From Desulfitobacteriaceae bacterium (GTDB taxonomy: Bacteria; Bacillota; Desulfitobacteriia; Desulfitobacteriales; Desulfitobacteriaceae): a stretch of 33,604 nt of DNA. The notes beneath the pieces are model-generated. The model searched no databases and was not told the DNA's origin. It saw only the letters and a list, made by a program, of their open reading frames with translations. Of the stretch, positions 1 to 6,908 are shown one piece after another (positions within the stretch are counted from its first letter, which is position 1; the number at the start of each line of letters is the position of its first letter). The DNA is taken from the NCBI GenBank assembly GCA_028704155.1, contig JAQVLN010000001.1, positions 64,023 to 97,626 of the forward strand, in the 5' to 3' direction. The position numbers and the translations under genes are program-made.

Positions 1-233
1 TGCTTAAAGAAAAAGGTATTTTTATTGCAATGAAAGGGTCTCAGACAGAAGATGAACTAGCCGAAGCAAAATCAGCTTTGGTAAAACTGGGTGCAGAAGT
101 TGTTAAAGTTGCTAAATTTTCTTTAGGAGTCAAGGCTGAGCATCGTTCGATTATTATAATCCGGAAAACAACTGTTACCCCTGATGAATATCCTCGAAAA
201 CCTGGAATTCCTTCAAAATATCCTCTAATATGA
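1..233 (+). CDS. rsmG: 16S rRNA (guanine-527-N7)-methyltransferase RsmG, C-terminal part
   Basis: Only the 3' end is present; the reading frame enters at base 3 and stops with TGA at 231-233. The visible 76 residues match the C-terminal end of RsmG (GidB): a strand and loop with KGSQTEDEL, an LGAE helix end, an IIIIRK strand, and the basic tail YPRKPGIPSKYPL, which closely resembles the Bacillus protein's tail. RsmG methylates G527 of 16S rRNA using S-adenosylmethionine; the SAM-binding part lies outside the window. Its place just upstream of parA-parB is the usual mnmE-mnmG-rsmG-parA-parB order next to oriC, so the origin should lie to the left of base 1. Confidence 0.93.
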   Translation, partial: LKEKGIFIAMKGSQTEDELAEAKSALVKLGAEVVKVAKFSLGVKAEHRSIIIIRKTTVTPDEYPRKPGIPSKYPLI

Positions 234-283
234 TTTAATCTAATTAATGTACGTACAATAATTTTAGATTTGAATCAATAAAT

Positions 284-304
284 AGCGCACTTGGCGCTTT
301 TTTT
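284..304 (+). terminator. Rho-independent terminator after rsmG
   Basis: A 5-bp stem AGCGC/GCGCT with a 5-nt loop is followed by an unbroken run of seven T. It lies about 50 bp after the rsmG stop and 43 bp before parA. It probably separates the rsmG transcript from parAB, although the stem is short and readthrough is likely. Confidence 0.7.
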
Positions 305-346
305 ATGTCTTAAGTTTTGTTACTATAGAAAAGAGGTAATATCTTA

Positions 347-1126
347 ATGAAAGAGGTGCGCATTTTGACGAGGGTTATTGCAATAGTAAATCAAAAGGGA
401 GGTGTAGCCAAGACAACTACTGCAGTCAATCTAAGCGCTTGTTTAGGTGAACTTGGAAAGTGTGTTTTGTTAGTGGATCTTGATCCTCAAGGAAACGCCA
501 CTAGTGGTTTGGGAATACAAAAACAAAAGCTAAGCCAGTGTATTTATAATGTACTGATTGAAAATATACCAATTGAGAATATTATTCAAAATACGGGTTA
601 TAAAAATTTAGAATTAGTACCAGCTAGAATAGAGTTGGCAGGTGCAGAAATTGAGCTTGTTAACCAAATGTCCAGGGAAGCTAAATTGGCTGAATCTATT
701 CAATATATTAAATCAAACTATGATATAATTTTTATTGACTGTCCGCCTTCTTTAGGATTGCTTACAATAAATGCTTTAACAGCTGCAACAGATGTCTTAA
801 TTCCAGTCCAATGTGAGTATTACGCTTTAGAAGGTTTAACCTTATTAATGAATACATTAGAACGTGTCAGGAAACACCTGAATCCTAATTTAAATGTTCT
901 TGGTGCACTTCTAACTATGTTTGATGCCAGAACAAATTTATCTATCCAGGTCGTGGATGAAGTTAAAAAGTACTTTAGGCAACGGGTTTTCCAAACAATA
1001 ATTCCCCGCAATGTCCGTCTTGGTGAAGCTCCCAGTCATGGTAAACCCATTGTATATTATGATGGTCGTTCTAGAGGTGCTGAAGTGTACAGAGATCTTG
1101 CTGAGGAGGTATTGACGCGTGTCTAA
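347..1126 (+). CDS. parA: Chromosome partitioning ATPase ParA (Soj)
   Basis: Cytoplasmic deviant-Walker ATPase that moves and regulates ParB-parS complexes and influences DnaA in Bacillus. The N-terminus carries the deviant Walker A motif KGGVAKTTT (signature Lys17 and Lys22), with Ala where many homologues have Gly; the KGGxxK[ST] pattern is intact. Walker B is IIFIDCPPSLGLLTINAL, and the C-terminal IPRNVRLGEAPSHGKP block is typical of Soj. The ATG at 347 follows AAGAGG by about 10 nt. A TTG at 365 follows AAAGAGGTG by about 7 nt and would give 253 residues, starting exactly where B. subtilis Soj does. I cannot choose firmly between them. The gene overlaps parB by 8 bp, indicating translational coupling. 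Confidence 0.96.
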   Translation: MKEVRILTRVIAIVNQKGGVAKTTTAVNLSACLGELGKCVLLVDLDPQGNATSGLGIQKQKLSQCIYNVLIENIPIENIIQNTGYKNLELVPARIELAGAEIELVNQMSREAKLAESIQYIKSNYDIIFIDCPPSLGLLTINALTAATDVLIPVQCEYYALEGLTLLMNTLERVRKHLNPNLNVLGALLTMFDARTNLSIQVVDEVKKYFRQRVFQTIIPRNVRLGEAPSHGKPIVYYDGRSRGAEVYRDLAEEVLTRV

Positions 1127-1976
1127 ACGTGCTTTAGGCAGAGGTTTGGAGGCCTTGATTTTTGATAGTTCTGACGAAAAAGGAATTAAGGAAATATCAT
1201 TAACTGAAATAGAGACAAATATTGATCAACCGCGAAAAGAATTCAATATTGATAGTCTGGAAGAACTGGCAGAGTCGATACGTATTCATGGTTTGCTTCA
1301 ACCAATTTTGGTCAGAATAAATGGCCAGAAATATACAATAATTGCTGGAGAACGACGTTTTCGTGCTGCTAAAATGGCTGGCTTAGAAAAGATAGCATGT
1401 CTGGTTCAGGAGTGTTCTCCCCAGGAGAGTGCTGAAAGAGCATTGGTAGAGAATATTCAAAGATCTGATTTATCACCAATAGATGAAGGATTGGCCTATG
1501 TAAGATTAATGGAGGATTATGGACTTACGCAGGAACAAGTTGCGGGTAGAGTTGGAAAAGGACGTCCAACTGTAGCAAATCTAATAAGAGTAATAAAATT
1601 GCCCGAACCAATATTGTCTCTATTGCGTCAGGAAAGGATTACAGTCGGTCATGCCAAATTATTATTAAGTATTGATGATTCTTCTTTGCAAATAATGATC
1701 GCGAAAAAAGTATCTAAAGACGGGCTTTCAGTTCGTGAAGCTGAGAATTTAATTGGTAATCTCTTTGATAAAGAAGACACTAAGACAAAAGAAATAAAGA
1801 AAGTAACAATATCAGAAAATAGTACTATGCAGGTGGTAGAGGAACGGTTAAATAGTTTTTTACAGACTAAAGTAAAGCTTAAAGGGAAACCGGGCAAAGG
1901 AAAAATAATAATTGATTACTTTTCTCAGGAAGAATTGAATCGTTTACTGGAACTTTGGAATATACCGATAGAATAG
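1119..1976 (+). CDS. parB: Chromosome partitioning protein ParB (Spo0J)
   Basis: CTP-dependent DNA clamp that loads at parS and spreads to organise the origin region. The GTG start at 1119 lies inside the parA 3' end and is preceded 8 nt upstream by GAGGAGGT. The 285 residues match the family (B. subtilis 282). In order: an N-terminal ParA-interacting stretch (KRALGRGLEAL), the ParB/Srx domain with the CTP-binding boxes GERRFRAA (about residues 76-83) and ENIQRSDLSP (about 110-120), a helix-turn-helix around 136-160 (LTQEQVAGRVGKGRPTVANL), and a C-terminal dimerisation domain. Two parS sites lie immediately downstream, so the partner sites are local. Transcription is expected to end in the palindrome at 1985-2044. 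Confidence 0.97.
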   Translation: MSKRALGRGLEALIFDSSDEKGIKEISLTEIETNIDQPRKEFNIDSLEELAESIRIHGLLQPILVRINGQKYTIIAGERRFRAAKMAGLEKIACLVQECSPQESAERALVENIQRSDLSPIDEGLAYVRLMEDYGLTQEQVAGRVGKGRPTVANLIRVIKLPEPILSLLRQERITVGHAKLLLSIDDSSLQIMIAKKVSKDGLSVREAENLIGNLFDKEDTKTKEIKKVTISENSTMQVVEERLNSFLQTKVKLKGKPGKGKIIIDYFSQEELNRLLELWNIPIE

Positions 1977-1984
1977 TAAAATAA

Positions 1985-2044
1985 AGCTTTATAGTAAATA
2001 ATGTTCCACGTGGAACATTATTTACTATAAAGCTAACTTTTTTT
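1985..2044 (+). terminator. 50-bp perfect palindrome plus T-run: parAB terminator with parS at its centre
   Basis: Bases 1985-2034 form a perfect inverted repeat: 25 bp per arm, no mismatch and no spacer. Two bases later comes a run of seven T (2038-2044). It starts 8 bp after the parB stop. As RNA it would fold into a very long hairpin followed by U-rich sequence, the pattern of an intrinsic terminator. The innermost 16 bp are an exact parS site. The double role is inferred from sequence only. Confidence 0.8.
2002..2017. promoter_or_regulatory. parS: parS site 1 (exact consensus)
   Basis: TGTTCCACGTGGAACA is identical to the B. subtilis parS consensus as I recall it. It is 25 bp downstream of parB and forms the centre of the 1985-2034 palindrome. 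ParB should nucleate here. Confidence 0.95.
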
Positions 2045-2058
2045 ATGTACAATCAAAA

Positions 2059-2074
2059 TGTTCCATGTGGAACA
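2059..2074. promoter_or_regulatory. parS: parS site 2 (one mismatch)
   Basis: TGTTCCATGTGGAACA differs from consensus at one central base (C to T at 2066), which breaks the perfect dyad. Its centre is 57 bp from that of site 1. Similar near-consensus sites act as parS in other Firmicutes. Confidence 0.85.
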
Positions 2075-2245
2075 TTCAAGGATATGTAATTACTTTCCCG
2101 TTGTGTCAAATGGCAGATGCCATTCATTTGGTGTTTATCAGGTTAGATTACGAATGAACAGATAATACAAAGTAATAATCACGGCATAATTTGAGCAAAA
2201 AAAATAGAAGTTGTTTATAAGGCTCAAGCAGGAGAAAAAAAACAA

Positions 2246-2827
2246 CTAAGTTGATTGCTCCAGCATTCTTGATTGAAAATAGGAGACTGCAATCATCCTG
2301 CTGATTGTTTCAGCCATTTGCCAGACTAAACCCAGCCTGGTATTTTGTAAAACTATATACTCCATAAAGCCACTGATATTTACTGTTCCGGTTAAATGAG
2401 CCTCACCAACTGCAGGAAGTACTTTATGCACGCCTGTTCCAGGTTTAAGTGGACCATTGGCCAGAGTAATGTAACCTACTGAATCTAACCTGCCCAGACA
2501 AGCATCAATAGCGATGATCATTGGATTAACAAATGTCTTTTCAATAAAAAGTATATTTTCAGCTAAGTTTGTCGCATGTACCGGGTCTTTTAAGGTTCCG
2601 ATAACGTTAAGTTTGGGAAGTTCATAATTGATTAATTGTGTACCAACTAGAGGACCTAGTGAATCTCCAGTTGAACGGTCGGTTCCAATACATAATATCA
2701 AGGCAGGGCGCTCAGATGAGACTGTGAATAATTTAGTAAGTCTGGATCTAATCTTGTTTGTGCCTTCATAGTCTTCAATATGCGCTTTGATATTTGACGG
2801 TTTAGTAAAAACAGATAATAGATTCAC
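2246..2827 (-). CDS. yyaC: Sporulation protein YyaC (DUF1256, GPR-protease-like)
   Basis: 193 residues, near the length of B. subtilis YyaC. Family blocks visible are LILCIGTDRSTGDSLGPLVG, a VHATNL segment, MIIAIDACLGRLDSVG and GEAHLTGTVN. The family is related in sequence to the germination protease GPR and is found in spore formers; its biochemical role is not established. The start is a GTG at 2825-2827 (complement) with GGAACGGAG about 8 nt upstream. Location next to parAB on the opposite strand matches the B. subtilis parB-yyaD-yyaC neighbourhood, except that yyaD is missing. It is divergent from the YkvI gene, with about 115 bp between starts. Confidence 0.9.
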   Translation of the reverse strand: MNLLSVFTKPSNIKAHIEDYEGTNKIRSRLTKLFTVSSERPALILCIGTDRSTGDSLGPLVGTQLINYELPKLNVIGTLKDPVHATNLAENILFIEKTFVNPMIIAIDACLGRLDSVGYITLANGPLKPGTGVHKVLPAVGEAHLTGTVNISGFMEYIVLQNTRLGLVWQMAETISRMIAVSYFQSRMLEQST

Positions 2828-2942
2828 TAAGCTAACTCCGTTCCAATTATCAGATCAATCTAAAATATTCCTGATCCAAGGCAAAAATATGCATGTTATT
2901 ACGTTTTCGTAAATATGCATGATGACGAGGAGGGAAATGCAT

Positions 2943-3983
2943 ATGTATTGGAAAACGGTCTTTCAAGTGGCCGCAACTTATGTTGGGGCGGTCATGGGAG
3001 CAGGATTTGCCTCTGGTCAAGAAATACAGCAGTTCTTCGCCCGTTTTGGATATTGGGGATTAGCTGGCATTATAGTGAGTTCCGGATTATTTGCACTCTT
3101 TGGTTGGGTAATGCTGGATATGCAAAAACAATGGAGAGTATCAACATATCCAGATTTCTTCAGGCATTTGTTGGGAGGACACTTGGGTAGATGGGCTGAT
3201 ATTCTAGTTAGTATCCTTCTGTTTATTGGTATGATTGCTATGCTTTCCGGCAGTGGGGCTATTTTTATTGAGTATTTTGGAATGTCTCGCTGGTTAGGCA
3301 TTTCTTTAACCTCGGTTGTCATTGTCCTGGCTCTATGGTACAAAGGTGAAGGTGTGCTTTGGATAAATTCACTTTTGATTCCGCTAAAATTTCTATTTTG
3401 TTTAGGTATTGGTTGTGCAGCGGTATTTCTAGCTGCTTCCGGAGATGGAGAAGGTATTATGATTTTACCTCACCCAATTATCAAACATTGGGTAATCTCG
3501 GCAATATTATATGTATCTTTTAACCTGACTTTGGCCATGGTTGTGTTTGCTTCTTTAGGTCAGGAAGTTCAAAAACCAGGTGCAAAATTGGGAGCGGTTT
3601 GTGGAGGGATATCGCTGGGAATATTTGCCATGGTTATTGGTGCAGGATTATTGCGCTTTCCAGAGGTAATCGGATTTGAAATTCCAATGGTTGCTGTAGC
3701 AGGTAAATTAGGAGACTGGCCTGCTTTTTTTTATGTAATAGTACTTTGGCTAGCTATGGTTACAGCCGCGATTGGTAATGGTTTCAGTTTAGCTTGCAAA
3801 TTTGTGGATTCAAACAAAGTAAGTTATAATAGTGCAACAATTTTGTTATTGATAACAGTTTTTCCTTTAGCCGGTATTAAATTTTCACGTATAATTGGAG
3901 TTGTTTATCCGATATTTGGTTATATCGGCTTAATATTTCTGCCCTCACTACTTTATTGTTGGCATCGAATGGCTAAAAAATAA
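2943..3983 (+). CDS. YkvI-type integral membrane protein, probable transporter
   Basis: About 346 residues and strongly hydrophobic, with roughly ten membrane segments. The N-terminal block ATYVGAVMGAGFASGQEIQQFF is characteristic of the YkvI family, which resembles amino-acid and sodium symporters of the LeuT/APC fold with an unwound first helix (GAGFASG). The substrate is unknown. Upstream in-frame ATGs exist at 2919 and 2937, but GAGGAGGG at 2927-2934 sits 8 nt before the ATG at 2943, so I choose 2943. It stands alone on +, divergent from yyaC and convergent with the small gene at 4051-4356. A short hairpin (TTACG/CGTAA, 2899-2912) between two ATATGCAT copies lies just upstream. Confidence 0.85.
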   Translation: MYWKTVFQVAATYVGAVMGAGFASGQEIQQFFARFGYWGLAGIIVSSGLFALFGWVMLDMQKQWRVSTYPDFFRHLLGGHLGRWADILVSILLFIGMIAMLSGSGAIFIEYFGMSRWLGISLTSVVIVLALWYKGEGVLWINSLLIPLKFLFCLGIGCAAVFLAASGDGEGIMILPHPIIKHWVISAILYVSFNLTLAMVVFASLGQEVQKPGAKLGAVCGGISLGIFAMVIGAGLLRFPEVIGFEIPMVAVAGKLGDWPAFFYVIVLWLAMVTAAIGNGFSLACKFVDSNKVSYNSATILLLITVFPLAGIKFSRIIGVVYPIFGYIGLIFLPSLLYCWHRMAKK

Positions 3984-4022
3984 AATTATCTTATTTCCGG
4001 GTAAAGATTTTAAAATATTTGT

Positions 4023-4040
4023 TTTTATTATATAATAAAA
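4023..4040. repeat. AT-only palindrome between convergent genes
   Basis: An 18-bp perfect palindrome, TTTTATTATATAATAAAA, lies between the convergent YkvI gene and the small minus-strand gene. T-rich sides on both strands could give weak bidirectional termination, but without GC pairs the hairpin would be unstable. Confidence 0.35.
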
Positions 4041-4050
4041 TTAAGTTTCT

Positions 4051-4356
4051 TTAGCTCATAATTAATCTTTTAAATTCATCAGAGTTATTCGACAGTTCAT
4101 TTTTGCCATAACTTGCAGTTATAAGTTTAACTGCATGGGCAAAACCAATGCCATAACATATTTCCTCAACTTCTATCTCTATTGAAGATAAAATATTTTC
4201 GATCTCATAGGCCAGTTCTTTGTTGTTAATTTTATCCAAGAACTCATATAATCTGTAATTTAATTCCTTATAACGTTTATTTTTTTCTATAGCAGAACAA
4301 AGTTCATTAGTAAAGTTTTCGCGTGATTTCATTACTTGTTTAAAAATACTGAACAT
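4051..4356 (-). CDS. Small helical protein, possibly DUF6809-like
   Basis: 101 residues, charged and mostly predicted alpha-helical, with no membrane segment or signal peptide. The complement strand shows AAAGGAG 5 nt before the ATG, a good ribosome-binding site, so I believe it is translated. The pattern YKELNYRLYEFLDKI followed by a helix ending in YGIGFAHAVKLITASY resembles short clostridial proteins grouped as DUF6809; this comes from memory of the pattern and is uncertain. Function unknown. It is more AT-rich than its neighbours. An 18-bp palindrome lies 55 bp upstream of its start and could be an operator. Confidence 0.65.
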   Translation of the reverse strand: MFSIFKQVMKSRENFTNELCSAIEKNKRYKELNYRLYEFLDKINNKELAYEIENILSSIEIEVEEICYGIGFAHAVKLITASYGKNELSNNSDEFKRLIMS

Positions 4357-4410
4357 TTCTACTCCTTTGAGAAAATGTTGGATAAAGCCATTATTAATTG
4401 TGTTCCAGCA

Positions 4411-4428
4411 TATTAATAATTATTAATA
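4411..4428. repeat. 18-bp perfect palindrome TATTAATAATTATTAATA
   Basis: Perfect dyad with no spacer, in the 226-bp gap between the divergent small gene (minus) and the CvpA-type gene (plus). It could be a binding site for a dimeric regulator. An AT-rich background makes chance palindromes more likely, so support is limited. Confidence 0.35.
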
Positions 4429-4582
4429 GTATACCCTTAGAATGTATAGTTAGACATCCTAATAATAGTTTTATTAAAATTAGAAAAACCATGTATTTAA
4501 ATTCTCAGCAGGATTTCACTTAGAAGAACAGAACGGAATAGGATAAGGATATGCATGAAAACAAAATTGTCAGGGGGCAGCT

Positions 4583-5323
4583 ATGAATGTTATTGATATA
4601 CTGATTCTGGTTGTAATTGTACTGAGTGCTTTACAGGGTTATCGAAAAGGTCTGATTAACGGTTTGGGCCAATTTGCCGGGATTATTATTGGGTTTTTTG
4701 TGGCTTCCCTGGAATATATTAATGTCCTGAAATGGCTTGAGCAAACCTTTCCTTTGCAGCGTTGGCTGGAACCGCAAGTTTATAAGTTAGTCCTGCCATC
4801 TTTACAGTCCCAAACCGGAACAATAACTCAGCAGAGTATTGAACGGCTACTTGAGATAATTCCTGCTGAATTGCGGAATTCCTTTGCTTCAGGTAACCTG
4901 ATTGAGGGATCTGCTGCGACAATCACTCAGAGTTATATCGAACAAGCGGCCCGGAATATATCTGGTCTTCTTACAGAGAAAATTTTAGCTCTGTTGACTT
5001 TTGTACTGATCCTTTTGGTAATAATTGCTATTGTTCGGATTATCGTTACAATTTTATTTGCTCCGCTGGGAATTTTTAAAGGTGTTGTTAATCGTGGAGG
5101 CGGCTTATTATTTGGTGGACTATGTGCCTTTCTTTCACTAGCGGTAATTAGCGGCATATTTTTACCGATAATTAAGTTAGATGTCCAAAATTCGGGGCTA
5201 ATGCTTCTGCAGCAGTCTATTTTCCTGCCATATCTGTTGCAGACTTTTCAAATGCTTAGCCAGGTTTTCTCATTGCAGTTAGTACAAACCTCATTAAATA
5301 TAATAAAATGTTGTTTTTCATAA
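4583..5323 (+). CDS. CvpA-family membrane protein
   Basis: 246 residues. The N-terminus VIDILILVVIVLSALQGYRKGLINGL is the CvpA signature: a first membrane helix followed by a conserved G-x-x-[KR]-G turn. Further hydrophobic segments lie near residues 25-45, 140-165 and 175-200. Family members are inner-membrane proteins first linked to colicin V export and later to envelope stress and biofilm; no specific activity is visible here. The ATG is preceded by CAGGGGGC at 5-11 nt. It appears monocistronic, with 226 bp upstream and 208 bp downstream free of genes. Confidence 0.85.
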   Translation: MNVIDILILVVIVLSALQGYRKGLINGLGQFAGIIIGFFVASLEYINVLKWLEQTFPLQRWLEPQVYKLVLPSLQSQTGTITQQSIERLLEIIPAELRNSFASGNLIEGSAATITQSYIEQAARNISGLLTEKILALLTFVLILLVIIAIVRIIVTILFAPLGIFKGVVNRGGGLLFGGLCAFLSLAVISGIFLPIIKLDVQNSGLMLLQQSIFLPYLLQTFQMLSQVFSLQLVQTSLNIIKCCFS

Positions 5324-5531
5324 TTTCTTCGAGCTTTGCTCCCTAATCGAAAATTTGTTAAGATACTAAATAATAAACTGTTAATTTCCTGAAAGAGAAC
5401 AATAATGAATAACTGGATTTTTAAATAATTGAATCCATAAAGCTTTTTTGACTGAGGGAATACCACTCGGTGGCAAGGATATATAAATACAAACTAAAGT
5501 ATTAGACTGTTCCTAAGGAGGTCCCGAAACA

Positions 5532-5723
5532 GTGCAGTTAAATGTAGGTGATCTTGTTCGTTTGCGTAAACCTCATCCCTGTGGTAATACTGATTGGAAA
5601 ATAATGCGGACAGGCATGGATTTTCGGATTCAATGCCTGGGTTGCCAACATCAAGCCTGGATTTCGCGGGTAAAACTGGAACGTCAAATCAAGGAAATAC
5701 TTCATCAAAACGATAAGCAATAA
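5532..5723 (+). CDS. DUF951 small protein (YyzM-like)
   Basis: 63 residues, a full-length member of DUF951: an N-terminal LNVGDLVRLRKPHPCGNTDW, a short strand FRIQCLGCQHQ with a CxxC pair, and a basic helix. The single Cys of HPCG plus CLGC could bind a metal; this is inference. The family sits next to ychF and rpsF in many Firmicutes, with unknown role. The GTG start at 5532 has an excellent Shine-Dalgarno AAGGAGGTCC 7-8 nt upstream. A 6-bp inverted repeat (ACTGTT 5506-5511, AACAGT 5528-5533) encloses that site and touches the start codon, so initiation might be modulated. Confidence 0.88.
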   Translation: MQLNVGDLVRLRKPHPCGNTDWKIMRTGMDFRIQCLGCQHQAWISRVKLERQIKEILHQNDKQ

Positions 5724-5730
5724 GTATTTA

Positions 5731-5758
5731 TTGAGATTAAATGAGCCTGATTTATAAT
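5731..5758 (+). promoter_or_regulatory. SigA-type promoter for ychF
   Basis: -35 TTGAGA (5731-5736), 16-bp spacer, -10 TATAAT (5753-5758). The -10 lies inside the left arm of the inverted repeat 5744-5788. Confidence 0.6.
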
Positions 5759-5788
5759 GCCTTATTAGGCAGCATTGTGAATCAGGCT
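5744..5788. repeat. 17-bp inverted repeat overlapping the ychF promoter
   Basis: The left arm 5744-5760 pairs with 5772-5788: nine perfect outer pairs (AGCCTGATT/AATCAGGCT), then eight inner pairs with two G-T wobbles, and an 11-nt loop. No T-run follows, so it is not a standard terminator. It could act as an operator, or as an RNA hairpin in transcripts reading through from the DUF951 gene. Confidence 0.6.
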
Positions 5789-5807
5789 TATAGAGTGGAG
5801 GCAAATA

Positions 5808-6908
5808 ATGACCTTACATGCAGGAATTATCGGTTTGCCTAATATAGGAAAATCGACTTTATTTAACGCTATTACACAAGCAGGTGCAGATTCGGCAAAT
5901 TATCCTTTTTGTACTATTGACCCAAATGTAGGGATAGTTCAGGTTCCGGATGCCCGTTTGCAGGTTCTGGCCGATATCGTTAAGCCTGGACGAATTGTAC
6001 CGGCAACAGTAGAGTTTGTTGATATTGCTGGCTTGGTTAAGGGTGCCAGCAAAGGTGAAGGATTAGGAAACAAGTTTCTGGCTCATATTCGGGAGGTTGA
6101 TGCCCTTATTCATGTTGTACGCTGTTTTGAGGATACCAATGTCGTTCATGTTGAAGGCCAGATTGATCCCAAAAGGGATATCGAAATAGTTCAACTGGAA
6201 TTAATCCTTGCAGACTTGGAAAGCATTGAAAAAAGAATGGAAAAAAGCGCGAAGCTTTTAAAATCCGGAGACAAAAAAGCTTTCTGCGAAGTTGAGCTTA
6301 TGAAGCGTTTAAGAAAGGCATTTGATGAAGGTCAGGGAGCCGGGACACTTTCTTATAATGAAGAAGAGCGAGATATTTTAAAAACTTGGCCTTTGCTTAC
6401 CCTAAAGCCAACATTGTATGTCGTTAATGTTGGTGAAGAAGAGGCGGCAAATTCAGACAGTAATAACTATGTACAAATGGTCCGGGAAATAGCAGAGGCT
6501 GAAGGTTCGCAGGTTGTAGTCATTTGTGCTAAGATTGAAGCTGAAATCGCCGAACTTGAGGAGGAAGAAAAGGTACTTTTCCTGACTGATTTGGGATTAG
6601 GCGAATCAGGACTGGATCGCTTGATACGAGCAGCATTTGATCTTTTGGGTTTAATGACGTTTTTTACAGCGGGCCCCATGGAAGTCAAAGCCTGGACAAT
6701 TCGTAAAGGGACCAAAGCACCCCGGGCTGCCGGAGTAATCCATACTGATTTCGAACGCGGTTTTATCCGGGCTGAAGTTGTGGCGTATGGTGATTTTGTG
6801 TATTATTCCGGTTTCAATGGTGCTAGAGAAAAAGGTCTGGTACGTTTGGAAGGTAAAGAATATATTGTTGCTGATGGAGATATTATTCATTTTCGCTTTA
6901 ATGTTTAA
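5808..6908 (+). CDS. ychF: Redox-regulated ATPase/GTPase YchF (OLA1 family)
   Basis: 366 residues, the usual length. G1 is GLPNIGKST (residues 9-17), G3 is DIAGLVKGASKGEGLGNKFL, and the G4 position reads NVGEEE instead of NKxD, which is how YchF/OLA1 proteins come to prefer ATP. A coiled-coil insertion sits near residues 125-175 and a TGS domain at the C-terminus (MTFFTAGPMEVKAWTI onward), ending ADGDIIHFRFNV. Homologues bind ribosomes and act in stress and redox responses. The ATG follows GTGGAGG by 7 nt. It lies upstream of rpsF-ssb-rpsR, as in Bacillus, and has its own promoter candidate. Confidence 0.96.
   Translation: MTLHAGIIGLPNIGKSTLFNAITQAGADSANYPFCTIDPNVGIVQVPDARLQVLADIVKPGRIVPATVEFVDIAGLVKGASKGEGLGNKFLAHIREVDALIHVVRCFEDTNVVHVEGQIDPKRDIEIVQLELILADLESIEKRMEKSAKLLKSGDKKAFCEVELMKRLRKAFDEGQGAGTLSYNEEERDILKTWPLLTLKPTLYVVNVGEEEAANSDSNNYVQMVREIAEAEGSQVVVICAKIEAEIAELEEEEKVLFLTDLGLGESGLDRLIRAAFDLLGLMTFFTAGPMEVKAWTIRKGTKAPRAAGVIHTDFERGFIRAEVVAYGDFVYYSGFNGAREKGLVRLEGKEYIVADGDIIHFRFNV

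Follow-up and report, generated by a model that had tools for sequence, protein, structure and literature searches.

Chromosomal ParABS (Soj/Spo0J) partition systems, intrinsic transcription terminators, and quasipalindrome mutations are the described systems closest to the locus considered here. To our knowledge, the canonical parS site comprises 16 bp, and its flanks have not been described as palindromic. A literature search, thin on subscription journals, found no paper on the extension of palindromes centered on parS or on terminators with parS at their apex. One-step inverted copying through template switching perfects quasipalindromes in E. coli (PMC7202029). Ancestral reconstructions have led to the proposal that template switching also creates hairpins, and restores perfect pairing in them, in a single step (PMC8794818).

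The window, a stretch of 33,604 nucleotides from a Desulfitobacteriaceae bacterium (contig JAQVLN010000001.1), begins with the 3' end of rsmG (positions 1 to 233), followed on the + strand by parA (347 to 1126), an open reading frame for a Soj-type ATPase (Pfam AAA_31, 5e-69), and parB (1119 to 1976). The gene yyaC (2246 to 2827, - strand; TIGR02841 match, spore protease YyaC/DUF1256) is convergent with parB. ParB, encoded directly beside parS, is of the chromosomal ParB/Spo0J type, with the domains ParB_N, HTH_ParB, and ParB_C, as expected of the cognate protein. No Rfam family matches positions 1 to 6000 of the window.

A perfect 50-bp palindrome with 25-nucleotide arms (1985 to 2034) starts 8 nucleotides past the parB stop codon and is centered on the 16-bp parS core TGTTCCACGTGGAACA (2002 to 2017). 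This core matches chromosomal parS with 2 symmetric mismatches to the consensus TGTTTCACGTGAAACA; across the window's order, most genomes carry it unchanged, and the same sequence lies directly 3' of parB in relatives. On these sequence features, the site is judged to be a true chromosomal parS located just 3' of parB. The first-pass annotation had called it a consensus parS; with two mismatches, it is consensus-like. The left extra arm AGCTTTATAGTAAATAA (1985 to 2001, + strand) and the right extra arm TTATTTACTATAAAGCT (2018 to 2034, + strand), a perfect inverted copy of the left, add 17 perfect pairs per side to the core, so that both the exact centering and the number of additional paired bases claimed in that annotation are borne out. 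The seven T residues that it placed directly after the palindrome are present (2038 to 2044, + strand), but a 3-nucleotide AAC spacer separates them from the stem. On the yyaC strand, the tail TTTATTTT (1978 to 1985, - strand) lies immediately past the hairpin. As RNA, the palindrome folds into a predicted 23-bp stem with an ACGU loop (z = -8.6, equaled by no shuffle). With its 17 extra pairs, it is among the longest parS-centered palindromes collected. A second, degenerate parS, TGTTCCATGTGGAACA (2059 to 2074), absent from the first-pass annotation, carries a central C-to-T change and lies inside a segment (2057 to 2076) that is palindromic save at its center. A central change of this kind also occurs at the parB-proximal sites of L011, L117, L121, L127, L138, and L139, and asymmetric parS cores TGTTTCACGTGGAACA are common at many loci in the phylum.

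The extension of parS was measured at each site as the number of perfectly complementary bases outside the 16-bp core. Sites came from 74 genomes of the window's order, 119 genomes across the phylum, 9 genomes termed Heliobacteria-like (a guessed group name), and an Oscillospirales-type sample gathered through a ParB search of named genomes, which returned mainly Oscillospiraceae, and labeled by similarity to named Oscillospiraceae records. Part of the sites in these genomes entered the collection. The counts were compared with a flank-swap null, in which the left flank of one site is joined to the right flank from another locus, preserving flank composition and consensus. Among the 111 parS sites of the window's order, 31 show at least 5 extra pairs (1.28 expected), 18 at least 8 (0.11 expected), and 5 at least 15 (0.04 expected). 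The 142 Oscillospirales-type sites give 21 with at least 5 extra pairs against 0.81 expected and 12 with at least 8 against 0.04. In the phylum sample of 75 sites, 7 reach at least 5 extra pairs (0.61 expected) and none reaches 8. Extended palindromes centered on parS are real and recurrent. Their arms range from 5 to 20 extra pairs, and roughly one in two parS sites of the window's order has fewer than 3. Since related genomes contribute sites that are not independent, as with L105, L108, and L114, which have one common arm, the count of distinct arms is safer than the count of sites. In all groups, the two flank positions nearest the core show elevated pairing, even within the flank-swap null, which indicates that the core-adjacent flanks have a consensus in common and may be of importance.

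In the nine Heliobacteria-like genomes, which have as many as 9 parS sites each, arms show no excess over the flank-swap null. Tandem arrays of 8 to 9 parS sites with a nearly constant spacing of 67 to 71 bp occur in L196, L197, L203, and related genomes (G191, G192, and G196), and other arrays of this group have a spacing of 36 to 39 bp; these are iteron arrays of a centromere-like kind.

Two further kinds of palindrome served as controls. CIRCE, a conserved inverted repeat of the same genomes, shows no excess, with at least 5 extra pairs at 1 of 49 sites compared to 3.65 expected, although it is an imperfect control because its loop spans 9 nucleotides and its promoter flanks are under constraint. 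Across 834 kb of the order's DNA, the window among it, 33 perfect 16-bp palindromes other than parS were found, of which 5 are extended to arms of at least 13 nucleotides; this set is biased to long palindromes, which contain 16-mers by definition. These five indicate that parS is not unique as a seed of palindromes. The LexA/SOS box proved unusable as a control, with 6 matches in 5 of the 74 genomes. Perfect spacerless palindromes of 36 to 52 bp with the common motif TGTCCCA...TGGGACA occur in different genomes of the order (L279, 15016; L303, 475; L304, 14985) and are possibly a mobile or REP-like family.

The letters of the arms differ from site to site. The 18 sites of the order with at least 8 extra pairs carry 16 different 8-nucleotide arms, and 11 of the 12 corresponding Oscillospirales-type arms are different. 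The genus has one other member, G001, in which a parS with a central mismatch occupies the same position, 22 nucleotides after parB, within a palindrome of 8 extra pairs whose arm letters are unrelated to those of the window. This indicates that pairing persists or is restored while the sequence is replaced entirely. The first-pass annotation had held that relatives keeping parS and losing the arms without compensation would speak against a dual role; the many sites of the order with fewer than 3 extra pairs agree with such a loss, and the retained palindrome of G001, with its different arms, does not. Beyond the first mismatch, pairing drops at once to the background of 0.25. Together with the 16 different arms, this gives the abrupt, block-like, flank-specific inverted copy that is expected of a palindrome made by template switching, although selection for pairing could likewise give abrupt arm ends.

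Several observations bear on the source of the copy. In 41 of the 54 loci whose parB end is complete, parS lies at most 30 nucleotides from the stop codon of this gene, and the palindrome reaches back into the stop or last codons of parB, by up to 10 nucleotides, in L007, L105/L108/L114, L106, L141, L145, and others. Because the parB side is coding and comparatively conserved, the opposite arm is most simply the copy in these cases. In the sister genomes L136 and L137, a single case, the left arm of the orthologous parS lies inside an insertion (L137 versus L136), and the right side aligns. In the window, ATAGTAAA of the left arm (1991 to 1998) repeats the 3' end of parB (1973 to 1980); at a mere 8 nucleotides and a shuffle p of 0.026, this repeat is no more than suggestive of the parB end as the arm source. 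No alignable relative was found for the intergenic region of the window, nor a close strain pair with a one-step event at this site; an all-against-all comparison, meant to pair armed with armless sites in close relatives, returned mostly matches in coding flanks.

The reading held with moderate confidence is that the arms of the window arose through inverted copying of one flank across parS, and that some lineages put the hairpin to secondary use as a terminator. Weighing against it are the limits of the CIRCE control and the extension of palindromes other than parS. The naturally palindromic 16-bp parS would have been lengthened to 50 bp by copying one flank in inverted form across the center, presumably through template switching during replication, as in quasipalindrome mutations, with parS itself as the seed. 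The source flank in the window would probably be the 3' end of parB, as would be required where the arm of a relative enters parB. ParB would load at the core as at any parS, and no role of the arms in this loading is indicated. The extension is most likely lineage specific and would have recurred in many lineages, those with a T-tract also using the hairpin as a terminator. A less confident part of this reading is that the hairpin of the window may double as an intrinsic terminator in the gap between the convergent genes parB and yyaC.

The first-pass annotation had instead proposed a single selected element: the intrinsic parAB terminator would carry parS at its apex, and selection for termination would maintain the arms. 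ParB bound there might, in that view, act as a roadblock or feed back on parAB. Terminator potential was assessed with the d'Aubenton-Carafa score, newly implemented with its E. coli calibration, for which values above 0 pass. In the parAB direction (+ strand), the window hairpin scores -23.0, well below the threshold, due to the AAC spacer before T7, compared to +12.5 for the neighboring rsmG terminator (284 to 298). In the yyaC direction (- strand), it scores +15.0 and passes. The hairpin is thereby a plausible terminator toward yyaC and a weak one toward parAB, and its sequence would suit yyaC transcripts better than parAB transcripts. Another possible yyaC terminator (2235 to 2303, - strand; score of 7.5) consists of a T8 just past the yyaC stop codon and a weak hairpin upstream of it, with the candidate placed at 2303 to 2243, so that some transcripts of yyaC may end before the palindrome.

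Among the 31 long-arm sites of the order, the score is passed in at least one direction by 5 (the window, L013, L014, L106, and L145) and failed by 26; T-tracts follow the long arms in 5 cases compared to 2.8 expected. In L013 and L106, the passing hairpin lies 3' of parB. In the Oscillospirales-type sample, 10 of 21 long-arm sites pass compared to 1 of 108 short-arm sites, a contrast that is partly built in, as longer stems score higher. T-tracts are present at 6 of the first 11 sites of this sample, with 1.1 expected, and the hairpins mostly lie 0 to 31 nucleotides past the stop codon of the upstream gene. This gene is noc-like in L034, L041, L057, L061, and L070, of which L034 alone reaches the NCBIfam noc cutoff, and parB in L039. 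Hairpins with parS at the apex and a T-tract occur between the noc-like gene and parA in L034 (2996 to 3039), L041 (2877 to 2916), L057 (2938 to 2971), and L061 (2767 to 2804), from a few to about 30 nucleotides past the noc-like stop codon. By these predictions, hairpins that are centered on parS and resemble terminators recur in some Clostridia.

A combined parS and terminator is thus sound as a type, as the passing Oscillospirales-type sites indicate, while the parAB direction of the window fails to fit it. Selection of the arms for termination is opposed by the failing majority of long-arm sites in the order. Many parB-proximal palindromes of the order stand without a T-tract, and since long arms without one are common there, termination cannot explain the arms in general. 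Even with T7 nearby and the hairpin so close to the parB stop codon, an element selected for both roles is a possible but rather doubtful account of the window. An excess of G.T wobble pairs at the arm ends was also considered as a mark of selection on RNA and was uninformative, the orientation of the sites being arbitrary.

A further proposal, which builds on inverted copying and is unlikely as it stands, makes parS a hotspot at which palindromes grow again and again. Loaded at parS, ParB clamps or SMC would hinder the replication fork near the origin and provoke template switching on the parS palindrome; the flanks would repeatedly be rewritten and made perfect anew, and the hairpin would be adopted in some lineages as a terminator of noc, parB, or a convergent gene.

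Selection of the arms on DNA for ParB, through symmetric clamp loading, a cruciform, or wider ParB contact, is improbable. The extension at parS and its absence at CIRCE would fit such a function, as would the raised pairing next to the core, which hints at a core-adjacent consensus. It is opposed by arms that are unrelated in sequence and of any length, by the sites without arms, about half of the total and found even within one genome, and by the lack of excess in Heliobacteria-like genomes rich in parS. A very unlikely alternative is selection of the arms as a stabilizing hairpin at the 3' end of parB mRNA rather than as a terminator: hairpins without a T-tract lie about 15 nucleotides or less from the parB stop codon in several genomes, but similar palindromes lie hundreds of nucleotides from parB (second sites of L145, L122, L104, and L105). 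Chance, already called very unlikely in the first-pass annotation, or an assembly artifact has a negligible probability in view of the flank-swap nulls, the 0.04 expected among 111 sites for at least 15 pairs included, and of the recurrence in many independent genomes, some on very long contigs.

The findings describe a conserved bacterial centromere site whose flanks repeatedly become long perfect palindromes, with sequences unrelated between lineages, and some of these palindromes have the build of transcription terminators lying 3' of noc or parB. A single site would thereby link a mutational mechanism with transcription termination and the loading of ParB. The window shares with chromosomal ParABS parS sites the 16-bp palindromic core, the position at parB in an rsmG-parA-parB cluster, and a cognate ParB, and differs in that the core lies inside a 50-bp perfect palindrome. 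As in intrinsic (rho-independent) terminators, including bidirectional ones, a hairpin lies 3' of a gene, with U-rich tails on both strands and between convergent genes, whereas the stem of the window is 23 bp long and A/T rich, has a protein-binding site as its apex, and is separated by 3 nucleotides from the + strand T7. One-sided inverted copying, perfect stems, and abrupt ends are likewise features of quasipalindrome or template-switch mutations (the Ripley model; Lovett; Monttinen and Loytynoja), compared to which the copying here appears to have been seeded repeatedly at one conserved functional palindrome, through an event that is itself inferred. Taken by its sequence, the window holds parS, a site of known kind, in a form both unusual and recurrent.
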